Positions 32,956-37,270 of a DNA stretch of 64,000 bases are shown here, piece by piece. Origin of the DNA: Anaerolineales bacterium (GTDB lineage Bacteria > Chloroflexota > Anaerolineae > Anaerolineales > UBA11579); NCBI GenBank assembly GCA_019637755.1, contig JAHBVC010000001.1, forward strand, positions 248,001 through 312,000, written 5' to 3'. Each line of letters begins with the position of its first letter. Within the stretch, counting starts at the first letter, position 1. Both the position numbers and the translations under genes were made by a program. The notes under the pieces are model-generated. The model was given only the letters and a program-made list of their open reading frames with translations, was not told where the DNA came from and did not search any database.

Positions 32956-33708
32956 CTAGTTGCCGCCCATGAAGGTGGTGAACAAGTCGGCCAGCACGCC
33001 ACCGTTGCGCTTGACGCGGGCGCGGGTGTTGGCGGCGATGATGCGGCCCGCCAGTCGCGAGAGCGGCAGGCTCTGCAGGTACACCTTGCCGGGGCCGGTA
33101 AGCTGGGTCAGAAACAGGCCTTCGCCAGCGAACAAGGCGTTGCGCACACCCTTCATCATCTTGATGTTGTAATCCACCGTGGGCGCAAAGGCCACCAGGC
33201 AGCCGGTATCCACCCGCAGGGTCTCGCCCACCGCCAGAGTCTTTTCGATGAGCGTGCCGCCGGCGTGCACCCAGGCCATGCCGTTACCTTCAAGGCGCTG
33301 GAGGATAAAACCCTCACCGCCGAAGAGGCCGGCGCCCATGCGCCGGGTGAATTCGACCTCGATCTCGACGCTGCTGTCGGCGCACAGGAACGAATCCTTC
33401 TGGCAGATGAACTTGCCGCCTTCAGCGCCCAGGTTGATCGGCAGGATGCTGCCCGGGTACGGTGCGGCGAAGGCGACATGCGAAACGGCCGCGCTGACAT
33501 TGCTAAACGTGGAGATGAAGAAGCTCTCGCCGGTGAACATACGCTTGAGGCCTCTGAACAGGCCACCCACGCCGGTCTGCATATCGATACCGGGTTCCAT
33601 ATAGGCCATGGTGCCGGCTTCGCCGCGCACCGCCTCGCTTGGGTCCAGCTCGATCTCGAGCAACTGCAAATCGTCACCATAGATCTTGTACGCAATCTCA
33701 TTTGCCAT
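32956..33708 (-). CDS. TIGR00266/AIM24-like protein
   Basis: A 250-residue protein of the AIM24/TIGR00266 family, made of beta-rich TRAP-like repeats rich in glycine. Landmarks are the N-terminal VRGEAGTMAYMEPGI, GGEGFILQRLEGNG in the middle and the NALFAGEGLFLTQLTGPG segment. Yeast AIM24 affects inner-membrane organisation; the bacterial role is unknown. A ggag ribosome site precedes ATG 33708. It ends 45 nt before the DUF2200 start on the same strand. Confidence 0.85.
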   Translation of the reverse strand: MANEIAYKIYGDDLQLLEIELDPSEAVRGEAGTMAYMEPGIDMQTGVGGLFRGLKRMFTGESFFISTFSNVSAAVSHVAFAAPYPGSILPINLGAEGGKFICQKDSFLCADSSVEIEVEFTRRMGAGLFGGEGFILQRLEGNGMAWVHAGGTLIEKTLAVGETLRVDTGCLVAFAPTVDYNIKMMKGVRNALFAGEGLFLTQLTGPGKVYLQSLPLSRLAGRIIAANTRARVKRNGGVLADLFTTFMGGN

Positions 33709-34380: not shown

Positions 34381-36069
34381 ATGAAACTACGACGCCGAAT
34401 TCTGCTTTTCGCACTCACCCTGCTCATTGCGTTGGTGCCGCTGGGTGTGGTGTACGCGCAAACCTATGCCTTTCAAGTGCCGCGCCAGCGCGTGGATGTG
34501 TACTGGCAGAGCAACGGCACACTCACCGTTAGCTATGAGATCTTGTTCCTCAACGAGTCCTACGCCGACCCGATCGATTATGTAGATGTGGGCCTGCCCA
34601 ATGATTCGTACTCCATCTCCAACATCAGCGCCTCGATCGACGGCGAGCCGATCCGCCACATTGCCTATTCTCCCTATGTAGATAGCGGCGTGGAGCTGGG
34701 CCTGGGCGGTGCGGCGATCCCGCCGGGCACCAGCGGCACGCTGCGCATGACCGCCAGCGGCATTAGCGATGTCTTGTACGAAGACAACCAAGACGATGCC
34801 TACGCCAGCGCGCTGTTCATGCCCAACTATTTCGGCTCGGAATTCGTGAACGGCCGCAGCGACATCACCGTGGTGTTCCACCTCCCGCCGGGCGTACAGC
34901 CCAGCGAGCCGCGCTGGCACACGGCCGGGCACGCGGGCTTCCCCGAGGCGCCAGTCACCGGCGTGGATAACTCCGGCCGCATCACCTACACCTGGCGCAG
35001 CAGCAGCGCCAGCGCCAGCGAGGACTACTTGTTTGGCGCCTCGTTCCCGCGCAGCTACGTGCCTGCCAGCAGCGTTACCACGCCCAGCTTCTGGCAACGC
35101 TACGGGATCGACCCCGGCGCGCTGGTAACCCTGATGGTGTGCCTGTGTTTCGCCGCCACTTTTATTCTGATCATTGTTGTGAGTGTGCGCGCCGAAAAAT
35201 CGCGCCGCTTGAAATACTTGCCGCCCAAGATCTCGGTTGAGGGACACGGCATCAAACGCGGCCTCACCGCACCCGAAGCCGCCATTCTGCTCGAACAGCC
35301 AATGGACAAGATCCTCTCGATGATCTTGTTTTCCGTAGTCAAGAAGGGCGCGGCCGAAGTGGTGAGCCGCGACCCGCTGGATGTCGCCCGTAGCACCAAG
35401 GAAGTTACCGGGCTGCACGAATATGAGAATGATTTCCTTAACGCCTTCGCCGAGGACGATAAGGCCAAGCGCCGCCGTGCTCTGCAACAGATGATGATCG
35501 GCCTGGTGCGCCGGGTGGCCAATAAGATGCGTGGCTTTAGCAAGGGCGAGACGGTAACCTTTTACAAGAAGATCACCGCTGACGCCTGGGCTGAAGTAGA
35601 AGCCGCCGACACTCCCAAGGTGAAGAGCGCCGCCTTCGACGAGAATTTGGAATGGACAATGCTCGACCCGAACTACGAGCGGCGCACCCGCGATGTCTTC
35701 AGCAGCGGGCCGGTGATCCTGCCGCGCTGGTACGGCGGCTACAACCCCACCTACACCACCGCCGGCAGCGGCAGCAGTAGCGTAGGCAAGAGCGGCGGCG
35801 GCAGCCCCACGCGCACCACTGGCGGCGCCTCGCTACCCACCTTGCCCGGCGGCGACTTCGCCGCCTCGATGGTAGGCGGCGCCCAGAACTTTGCCGGCAG
35901 TGTGATCGGCAGCCTGTCTGACTTTACGGGCGGCGTCACCAAGGTCACCAACCCACCCCCGCCGCCGAGCACGTCCAGTGGTGGCGGTGGCGGCTTCAGC
36001 GGCGGCGGCTCTTCGTGCGCCTGCGCGTGTGCGGGCTGTGCCTGCGCCTGCGCTGGCGGCGGCCGCTAG
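34381..36069 (+). CDS. DUF2207-like membrane protein with a C-terminal Cys-Ala repeat tail
   Basis: A 562-residue protein. A signal sequence (~1-26) leads to an exported beta-rich domain (~30-235) with LTVSYEILFLNESYADP. One membrane helix (~245-268) follows, then a cytoplasmic region (~275-455) with LPPKISVEGHGIKRGLTAPEAAILL, like DUF2207 proteins. A Gly/Ser/Thr/Pro linker ends in an extraordinary tail (544-562): SSCACACAGCACACAGGGR, six cysteines alternating with alanine. The tail would be cytoplasmic. The adjacent gene encodes a PqqD-radical-SAM-like protein, so the tail may be a modification target; that is inference. Confidence 0.82.
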   Translation: MKLRRRILLFALTLLIALVPLGVVYAQTYAFQVPRQRVDVYWQSNGTLTVSYEILFLNESYADPIDYVDVGLPNDSYSISNISASIDGEPIRHIAYSPYVDSGVELGLGGAAIPPGTSGTLRMTASGISDVLYEDNQDDAYASALFMPNYFGSEFVNGRSDITVVFHLPPGVQPSEPRWHTAGHAGFPEAPVTGVDNSGRITYTWRSSSASASEDYLFGASFPRSYVPASSVTTPSFWQRYGIDPGALVTLMVCLCFAATFILIIVVSVRAEKSRRLKYLPPKISVEGHGIKRGLTAPEAAILLEQPMDKILSMILFSVVKKGAAEVVSRDPLDVARSTKEVTGLHEYENDFLNAFAEDDKAKRRRALQQMMIGLVRRVANKMRGFSKGETVTFYKKITADAWAEVEAADTPKVKSAAFDENLEWTMLDPNYERRTRDVFSSGPVILPRWYGGYNPTYTTAGSGSSSVGKSGGGSPTRTTGGASLPTLPGGDFAASMVGGAQNFAGSVIGSLSDFTGGVTKVTNPPPPPSTSSGGGGGFSGGGSSCACACAGCACACAGGGR

Positions 36070-36091
36070 CTACAACAGGAACGGGAACGCG

Positions 36092-37270
36092 ATGAGCTTA
36101 CTTGAGCGATTGGGATTGCGCGGCGGCGAACGGGCCAAACCACTGGAGCCGGGCCTGTTCTCCTACACCTCGCCCCCCAGCCACCCCACCCATTACCGTT
36201 TGCACCTGCGCATTGAGCCGGATGGCGAGGGTTTGCTGGTGGTCAATGCCAGCACGGTGCTGCACCTCAACCAAACCGCCACGGAAATGGCCTGGCACTT
36301 TATTCGCCTCACCCCGCCGGAGCAGGTAGCCCAGCAAGTATCCAAACGCTATCGCATCAAGGCGCAGCAAGCCGAAAATGATTACCGCGAGTTTGCCCAA
36401 ACGATCCAGACCTTGATCGAAACGCCAGATCTGGACCCGATCACCTACCTTGACCTTGAGCGCGCCGTGCCGTATGAGAACCTCAGCGCGCCGTATCGCC
36501 TGGACATCGCCCTCACCTATCGCCTGCCCGCCGGGGCGCCGGCGGAAGCCGCCCCCACCAAGCGCGTAGACCGCGAGCTGAGCACCGAAGAGTGGAAGCA
36601 AGTGATCGACAAGGCGTACGCAGCCGGCATCCCGCATGTGACCTTTACCGGCGGCGAGCCCACCCTGCGCGACGATCTGGCCAGCTTGTTGGAGCACGCC
36701 GAGGAGCGCGGCCTGGTGAGCGGTCTGATCACCGATGGCCACAAGCTGGCCGACACGCGCTACCTGAAGACCCTGCTGGACGCGGGGCTAGACCATGCCA
36801 TGATCGTGCTGCAACCCAGCGGCACGCAAACCTGGGATTCGCTGGCCAGCTTTGCCTACTGGCGCGAGGTGCTCAACGATGACATCTTCATCGCCGCACA
36901 CCTGACGCTGACGCCGGACAATGTGGGCCAAGCCAACGCCCTGATCGACAAGCTCTCCGGCAGCGGCATCCGCGCCCTGTCGTTGAGCGCCAGTGACCCG
37001 GCGCTCAACGCAGTGCTGCAAACCGCCCGTGACCATGCCGGCGCGCTGAACCTGCCGCTGGTGTGGGATTTGCCGGTGCCTTATTCGGCGCTCAACCCGG
37101 TGGCGCTGGAGCTCACAGACGGCGCCAGCCCGGCGCCCCAGGGCGCAGGGAGTGCTTGGTTGTATGTGGAGCCTGATGGCGATGTGCTGCCTGGCCAAGG
37201 TATCCAGCGCGTGCTGGGCAATTTTGCGAAGGATGCCTGGGACGCGATCTGGAGCACAGCCAGCAACTAA
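36092..37270 (+). CDS. PqqD-like domain fused to a cysteine-less radical SAM-like protein
   Basis: A 392-residue protein with two recognisable parts. Residues ~38-110 resemble a PqqD/RRE peptide-binding domain (LLVVNASTVLHLNQTATEMAW, then EQVAQQVSKRY). Residues ~135-390 follow a radical SAM/SPASM layout: HVTFTGGEPTLRDDL is the SAM-binding GGEP segment, and WLYVEPDGDVLPGQG...LGNFAKDAWDAIW is a SPASM-like end. The CxxxCxxC iron-sulfur motif is replaced (region 138-165), the SPASM Cys is Gly, and I find no cysteine anywhere in the protein. It cannot bind a 4Fe-4S cluster in the usual way. ATG 36092 has an agga ribosome site, 22 nt after the Cys-tail gene. Confidence 0.8.
   Translation: MSLLERLGLRGGERAKPLEPGLFSYTSPPSHPTHYRLHLRIEPDGEGLLVVNASTVLHLNQTATEMAWHFIRLTPPEQVAQQVSKRYRIKAQQAENDYREFAQTIQTLIETPDLDPITYLDLERAVPYENLSAPYRLDIALTYRLPAGAPAEAAPTKRVDRELSTEEWKQVIDKAYAAGIPHVTFTGGEPTLRDDLASLLEHAEERGLVSGLITDGHKLADTRYLKTLLDAGLDHAMIVLQPSGTQTWDSLASFAYWREVLNDDIFIAAHLTLTPDNVGQANALIDKLSGSGIRALSLSASDPALNAVLQTARDHAGALNLPLVWDLPVPYSALNPVALELTDGASPAPQGAGSAWLYVEPDGDVLPGQGIQRVLGNFAKDAWDAIWSTASN

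Follow-up and report, generated by a model that had tools for sequence, protein, structure and literature searches.

A near-invariant Cys-Ala tail on a membrane protein, its candidate RRE-radical-SAM maturase and a degenerate paralogue of that enzyme

What would a protein with the layout of a radical-SAM peptide maturase and without a single cysteine be doing directly behind a membrane protein that ends in a Cys-Ala repeat? The question is raised by a locus in the window, that is, the whole stretch of 64,000 nucleotides analysed here, which corresponds to C1:248001-312000 of a 2.26-Mb genome (G000). The membrane protein, M (P0001; 34381..36069, forward strand), has 562 residues and the C-terminus SSCACACAGCACACAGGGR. 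Its Cys-Ala tail, CACACAGCACACAGGGR (36016..36066, +), is composed of two CACACAG repeats followed by GGR and is the segment presumed to be modified. Protein B (P0002; 36092..37270, +) starts 22 nt past M; its 392 residues form PqqD/RRE, pseudo-radical-SAM and pseudo-SPASM regions, the whole chain is devoid of Cys, and neither CxxxCxxC nor the SPASM cysteines are present. Upstream of M lies Z (P0003; 33958..34311, +), of 117 aa, with two TM segments and a C-terminal zinc ribbon (CxxC...CxxC). All these coordinates and lengths, the tail, the gap and the Cys-free chain had been described in the same way by a sequence-only reading of this DNA, which took the pair for a possible RiPP-like or protein-modification system whose maturase had itself become a Cys-free binder of the tail. 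An AIM24-family protein (32956-33708, -) adjoins the module in the window, and DUF2200 is found farther out; the AIM24-family protein was not among the frequent neighbours when loci were clustered.

The layout read for P0002 is borne out by Pfam, where PqqD (PF05402; 29.8 bits, cut-off 23.4) and Radical_SAM (PF04055; 40.9 bits, cut-off 29.5) both pass and SPASM stays sub-threshold. No NCBIfam family cut-off was reached by P0002: the PqqE equivalog TIGR02109, which needs at least 381 bits, gave 83 bits (80-122 for the A proteins described below), and the pseudo-SAM family TIGR04347 gave 57.6 bits against a cut-off of 525. The AlphaFold2 model of P0002 (pLDDT 81) was matched to SkfB (Z 23.4, 301 residues aligned), PqqE (Z 22.3, 230 residues) and SuiB (Z 22.0, 315 residues), and the SkfB and SuiB alignments span the protein from about residue 24-35 to 392, covering the RRE. 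With these matches, the model confirms the PqqD and radical-SAM folds in a protein that can no longer build the clusters; an RRE-like fold accompanies the above-threshold PqqD score, and the motif that defines the enzymes of the radical SAM superfamily is missing though the fold is present. CxxxCxxC is gone in all 36 type-B homologues first collected, P0002 included. Since the loss is common to all of them, a sequencing error was rejected as its cause.

Of 61 genomes searched in the order, 50 have a match to P0002, and many of them have two distinct homologues. The second type, A, measures about 440-580 aa and keeps both CxxxCxxC (40/40) and eight conserved SPASM cysteines (40/40), with about 30-39% identity to B. 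The window's B is a degenerate paralogue of this intact maturase. In the genome of the window, the A gene maps to G000:C1:155346-156971 (L031:5347-6972, +), which is outside the window and about 125 kb away from M; its neighbours are a methyltransferase gene, T (L031:4554-5285, -), and a tail-less paralogue of M (L031:7102-8112). Many enzymes of the clade of this A (A-II, see below), for example this one, carry a Gly/Cys-rich C-terminal extension, GGGCSGCSGSCGTGG, which is absent in clade A-I. The earlier idea that the maturase itself had turned into a binding protein is not supported, an intact A being present at C1:155.3 kb here and in the same operon in most of the order. The complete absence of Cys in the window's B is incidental: only 8 of 83 B proteins have none, and since most retain 1-3 Cys, the idea that Cys were lost to cope with a reactive tail was rejected.

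From its N-terminus, M comprises a signal/TM segment, a beta-sandwich ectodomain (residues ~30-225; window 34459-35055), a TM segment (249-267), a cytoplasmic helical domain, a low-complexity linker and the tail. P0001 has no Pfam match, and the label DUF2207-like given to it before is weakly supported, the best DUF2207 (PF09972/PF20990) score being a sub-threshold E of 0.0087 in one of 19 homologues; for TIGR04222, P0001 gave 15.8 bits and a CHSAC-type M (described below) 23.9, the cut-off being 43. The ectodomain was modelled with good confidence as a beta sandwich, for which the PDB offers as closest folds ribophorin I, from oligosaccharyltransferase, and the N-domain of M1 aminopeptidases; the Asgard members (L089, L090, L099, L142) might count as ribophorin-like eukaryotic signature proteins. 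Considering the charges around the two TM segments, the positive-inside rule predicts that the N-terminus and the tail are cytoplasmic and the ectodomain is outside, which would leave the tail within reach of A. The model leaves the tail disordered, and the low-complexity linker ahead of it varies freely among homologues.

Within the order, all 34 P0001 homologues that have the tail keep it down to its final residue, each with two Cys-Ala blocks, a single Gly joint and a GGGR end. A DNA scan of 84,980 genomes with the 13-residue core CACACAGCACACA in every codon spelling detected at least 119 loci (L076-L194) in about 20 phyla, Asgard archaea among them. GGGR followed by a stop lay outside the query, and exactly this end was found in 117 among the 119 matches listed, in some after one extra CA unit; of the other two, one ends GGGGGR and one (Hungatella) runs past the tail. 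The 39-base core occurs in 117 different nucleotide versions among these 119, with variation at every degenerate codon position. The use of all synonymous codons indicates that selection acts on the peptide, and the conservation of the tail in these sequences is not a matter of chance. The bacterial origins among the matches listed are Chloroflexota, Fermentibacterota, Aminicenantes, Acidobacteriota, Armatimonadota, Planctomycetota, Zixibacteria, Coatesbacteria, Edwardsbacteria, Hydrogenedentota, Myxococcota, Bacillota and Actinomycetota, the archaeal ones Heimdall-, Hodarch-, Loki- and Sigynarchaeota, and the named relatives found there by the tail are mostly Anaerolineae/Chloroflexota. Most of these genomes are metagenome bins, so that single assignments may be wrong; isolates with the tail are Hungatella hathewayi WAL-18680 and several members of the Anaerolineaceae. 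The full operon is present in the isolates Bellilinea caldifistulae GOMI-1 (L147), Levilinea saccharolytica KIBI-1 (L153) and Ornatilinea apprima P3M-1 (L087). A further Cys-tailed protein, with the tail GGGGGCSGCGGCGGGCGGCGG (L213:2275-3648, -), is encoded in the Sigynarchaeota genome of L099, where it directly adjoins a more distant radical-SAM gene (L213:1117-2211, -).

Around each tail locus a stretch of 8 kb at most was fetched. In 103 among the 119 matches listed, A or B stands beside the tail, and in most of the 16 remaining loci M is at the edge of the locus. When 12 whole genomes were checked, picked mainly from those outside Chloroflexota and from orphan loci, an A homologue was present in every one (E <=8e-69), including the Asgard, myxobacterial and Hungatella genomes. 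Among 298 Anaerolineae genomes, all 36 with the tail fall within the 48 that have A or B (E <=1e-40; hypergeometric P 2e-36 with genomes treated as unrelated), and one that is 99% complete (G060) has no A, B, M or tail. The correspondence is looser on the side of the enzymes: A is present and M or tail was not detected in G065, G066 and G214, B is alone in G249, and a relaxed tail pattern found nothing in the A-only or B-only genomes. In most of the order A is in the same operon, the commonest arrangements being Z, M, A, B, T (17 loci) and M, A, B, T (16 loci); the Asgard loci are arranged M, A, T. T is a class I methyltransferase (Methyltransf_11) that occurs in 69 loci also containing A or B, usually within ~100 nt. 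The A homologue of Hungatella overlaps the gene for the tailed protein, and relatives of this enzyme are rare in its class, with 2 of 148 genomes having one. Several Anaerolineae operons have a protein of ~335 aa between A and B (L068:5688-6692, +; L078:4219-5232, +; L065:7172-8194, -), the one member scanned having no Pfam match.

With this operon linkage and co-occurrence, the earlier proposal that the tail and a PqqD/radical-SAM-like protein form one conserved RiPP-like modification system stands, and so does the membership of the zinc-ribbon protein, Z homologues being directly upstream of M in most operons of the order; the part that did not stand is a maturase turned binder and adapted by Cys loss, A having been missed. 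We propose, with a probability of about 0.7, a post-translational tail-maturation system in which A modifies the tail of M and B is a non-catalytic partner. The tail could instead be an unmodified metal or Fe-S ligand, as a metal sensor or a redox or copper/zinc buffer on the inner side of the membrane, with A and B serving another substrate or inserting the metal. With alternating cysteines, every thiol of a strand would point the same way, there is a zinc-ribbon protein in the operon, fused to M in one locus (L217), and A has its eight SPASM cysteines. We nevertheless hold this improbable, considering that the partner which the tail has everywhere belongs to the radical-SAM enzymes of the peptide-maturase type and has an RRE-like domain, which predicts modification, and that every Ala, the single Gly and the terminal GGGR are near-invariant, beyond what metal binding needs.

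In the tree, A is divided into clades A-I and A-II and deep lineages (Asgard, Clostridia and CHSAC type), and B into B-I, to which the window belongs, and B-II. The two B groups are joined at 92% support with a branch length of 2.96 to B-II; given this very long branch, a single origin of B was not retained, and one or two losses both fit. Apart from the window's family, which was excluded from these counts, the repeat type of the tail follows the clade of A: n+3 tails go with A-I in 90 of 90 cases and n+4 tails with A-II in 8 of 9, a match that co-inheritance of M, A and B could explain in part. Clade A-I was not found in the window's family, where A-II is present instead; most relatives encode it on the other strand, some 1.5-4 kb away from B. 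The family is a hybrid system, with B-I and M of one type and the maturase of the other. This coexistence of A-II with an A-I-type tail counts against the model, and so does the position of A in the window's genome, far from M and next to a tail-less M paralogue. Another possibility is that the Cys-free protein binds the tail alone, with no maturase left. B is indeed the sole radical-SAM-like gene beside M in the window, and it occurs without A in the stretch fetched at 6 among the 119 tail loci listed; these B-only loci, however, belong to the window's family or are stretches that end before A could show, and A is present in the genome of the window and in most relatives, which makes this explanation very unlikely.

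Among the sequences examined, B was confined to Chloroflexota, Armatimonadota, Planctomycetota and one myxobacterial genome (G359), and this limitation to few phyla points to M and A as the core of the system. Strictly conserved in B are GGEP, EPDGDVLP, the PqqD core and other core motifs, which might be taken to mean that B is catalytic without a cluster, for example as a SAM-dependent transferase through the kept GGEP region. We give this little credit: all cluster ligands are gone in the large B clade, the kept motifs may just maintain the fold or a peptide cleft, and most phyla do without B, M and A being enough there. The same strict conservation fits a pseudo-enzyme retained for its binding cleft.

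A further line of evidence was obtained by choosing A homologues without regard to the tail and then examining their neighbours. In a second Clostridia genome (L217), the gene next to A (L217:2900-4156, +) encodes an ectodomain, a TM segment, an internal zinc ribbon and SSCAHSSCACACACACAGGGRAGC; this fusion of a zinc ribbon into the tailed protein supports the tie of the Z gene to the tail. In the Anaerolineae family f35 (L222-L224), the neighbour of A ends in CACAG-CACACACAGGGR or CACAG-CACACAGGGR, and these shorter CACAG tails were invisible to the first tail pattern. The most distant A homologues have as neighbour a related membrane protein with a different Cys tail, CHSACHSACHSACV...CHSAC, and (CHSAC)n tails were found next to A homologues in L207, L227-L234, L236 and L237, for example at L227:7103-8857 (-), L230:6512-8215 (-), L233:6203-8035 (-) and L207:3790-4263 (-), each beside a distant A-type radical-SAM enzyme. 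The CHSAC-type tail is about 45 residues long, with CHSAC/VHDAC repeats and the end ACVSxF. The prediction missed in L218-L220, where A has no M, and in L226, where A has no tailed neighbour. A role of the tail as a signal for processing or degradation, with the radical-SAM enzyme modifying another part of M or another protein, would agree with the C-terminus being the most conserved part of M and with the nearly invariant GGGR, but deserves hardly any weight, as the tails of Hungatella and G490 are internal, with more residues after them, and still paired with A, and (CHSAC)n tails end differently yet pair with A homologues.

In the proposed tail maturation, M would sit in the membrane such that its ectodomain faces outward and its Cys-Ala tail reaches into the cytoplasm, and A, an RRE(PqqD)-radical-SAM-SPASM enzyme with ligands for one SAM-cleaving cluster and for auxiliary clusters, would recognise the repeat and modify it. 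Cys-to-alpha-carbon thioether crosslinks are a plausible product: a Cys/Ala repeat about one Gly would suit a crosslinked hairpin, CACACA-G-CACACA, with the single Gly as the turn. SkfB is reported as a sactipeptide thioether synthase (PMC6231123), and Ala has served as thioether acceptor in a radical-SAM RiPP variant, Cys24-Ala31 of a ruminococcin C mutant (PMC6779426). We would still put thioether chemistry at one-third likely at most, the alternatives being methylation, oxidation and metal insertion, and T may add a second mark. B, descended from an A-type enzyme with loss of its clusters, would most likely act as a non-catalytic partner that binds M, its tail or A and presents the tail to A.

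If the system is real, a tail unchanged letter for letter between phyla implies a defined product that serves a defined function, for which a new cofactor derived from protein, or a new metal site, is the probable candidate. Somewhat better than even, in our estimate, are the chances of the wider statement that an RRE-radical-SAM enzyme of about 20 phyla, Asgard archaea included and in some lineages aided by a pseudo-enzyme, covalently modifies the ultra-conserved Cys-Ala (or CHSAC) tail of a membrane protein with a ribophorin-like ectodomain, giving a new cofactor or metal site on the cytoplasmic side of the membrane. If true, radical-SAM/RRE chemistry would reach beyond small secreted peptides to a conserved membrane-protein tail, over a wide range with Asgard archaea and cultured anaerobes in it, and B would be a tractable example of a maturase become a partner.

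All the proteins stay under the cut-offs that define named NCBIfam families, and searches of the open-access literature, itself incomplete, for the tail as a protein sequence or for a pseudo-rSAM gave nothing relevant. TIGR04347, from haloarchaea, is likewise described as radical-SAM-like but lacking a functional SAM site; P0002 scores under its cut-off and is not a member, and we know of no Cys-Ala tail partner for it. SkfB, SuiB and PqqE with PqqD, the best structural matches of B, share the RRE, radical-SAM and SPASM architecture. They differ in that the presumed substrate here is the C-terminal stretch of a membrane protein of ~560 aa and no small leader-core precursor like those of sactipeptides and ranthipeptides, that B is without cluster ligands, and that A and B are far under the NCBIfam cut-offs. 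The closest precedent is the proposed modification by MNIO (DUF692) enzymes of the tails of TIGR04222 membrane proteins (PMC12452194). There, too, a membrane protein with a Gly/Ser/Cys-rich, low-complexity C-terminal tail adjoins a peptide-modifying metalloenzyme, and M has sub-threshold similarity to TIGR04222. The enzyme here, in contrast, is radical SAM, and the tail, in which Cys and Ala repeat strictly and GGGR is the fixed end, is predicted to be cytoplasmic and not periplasmic as there (PMC12452194). A link to MNIO itself was rejected, no PF05114 being detected in the window's genome (97% complete) while control genomes were positive. The system proposed here is best called RRE-guided maturation, applied through radical-SAM chemistry to a conserved membrane-protein tail.
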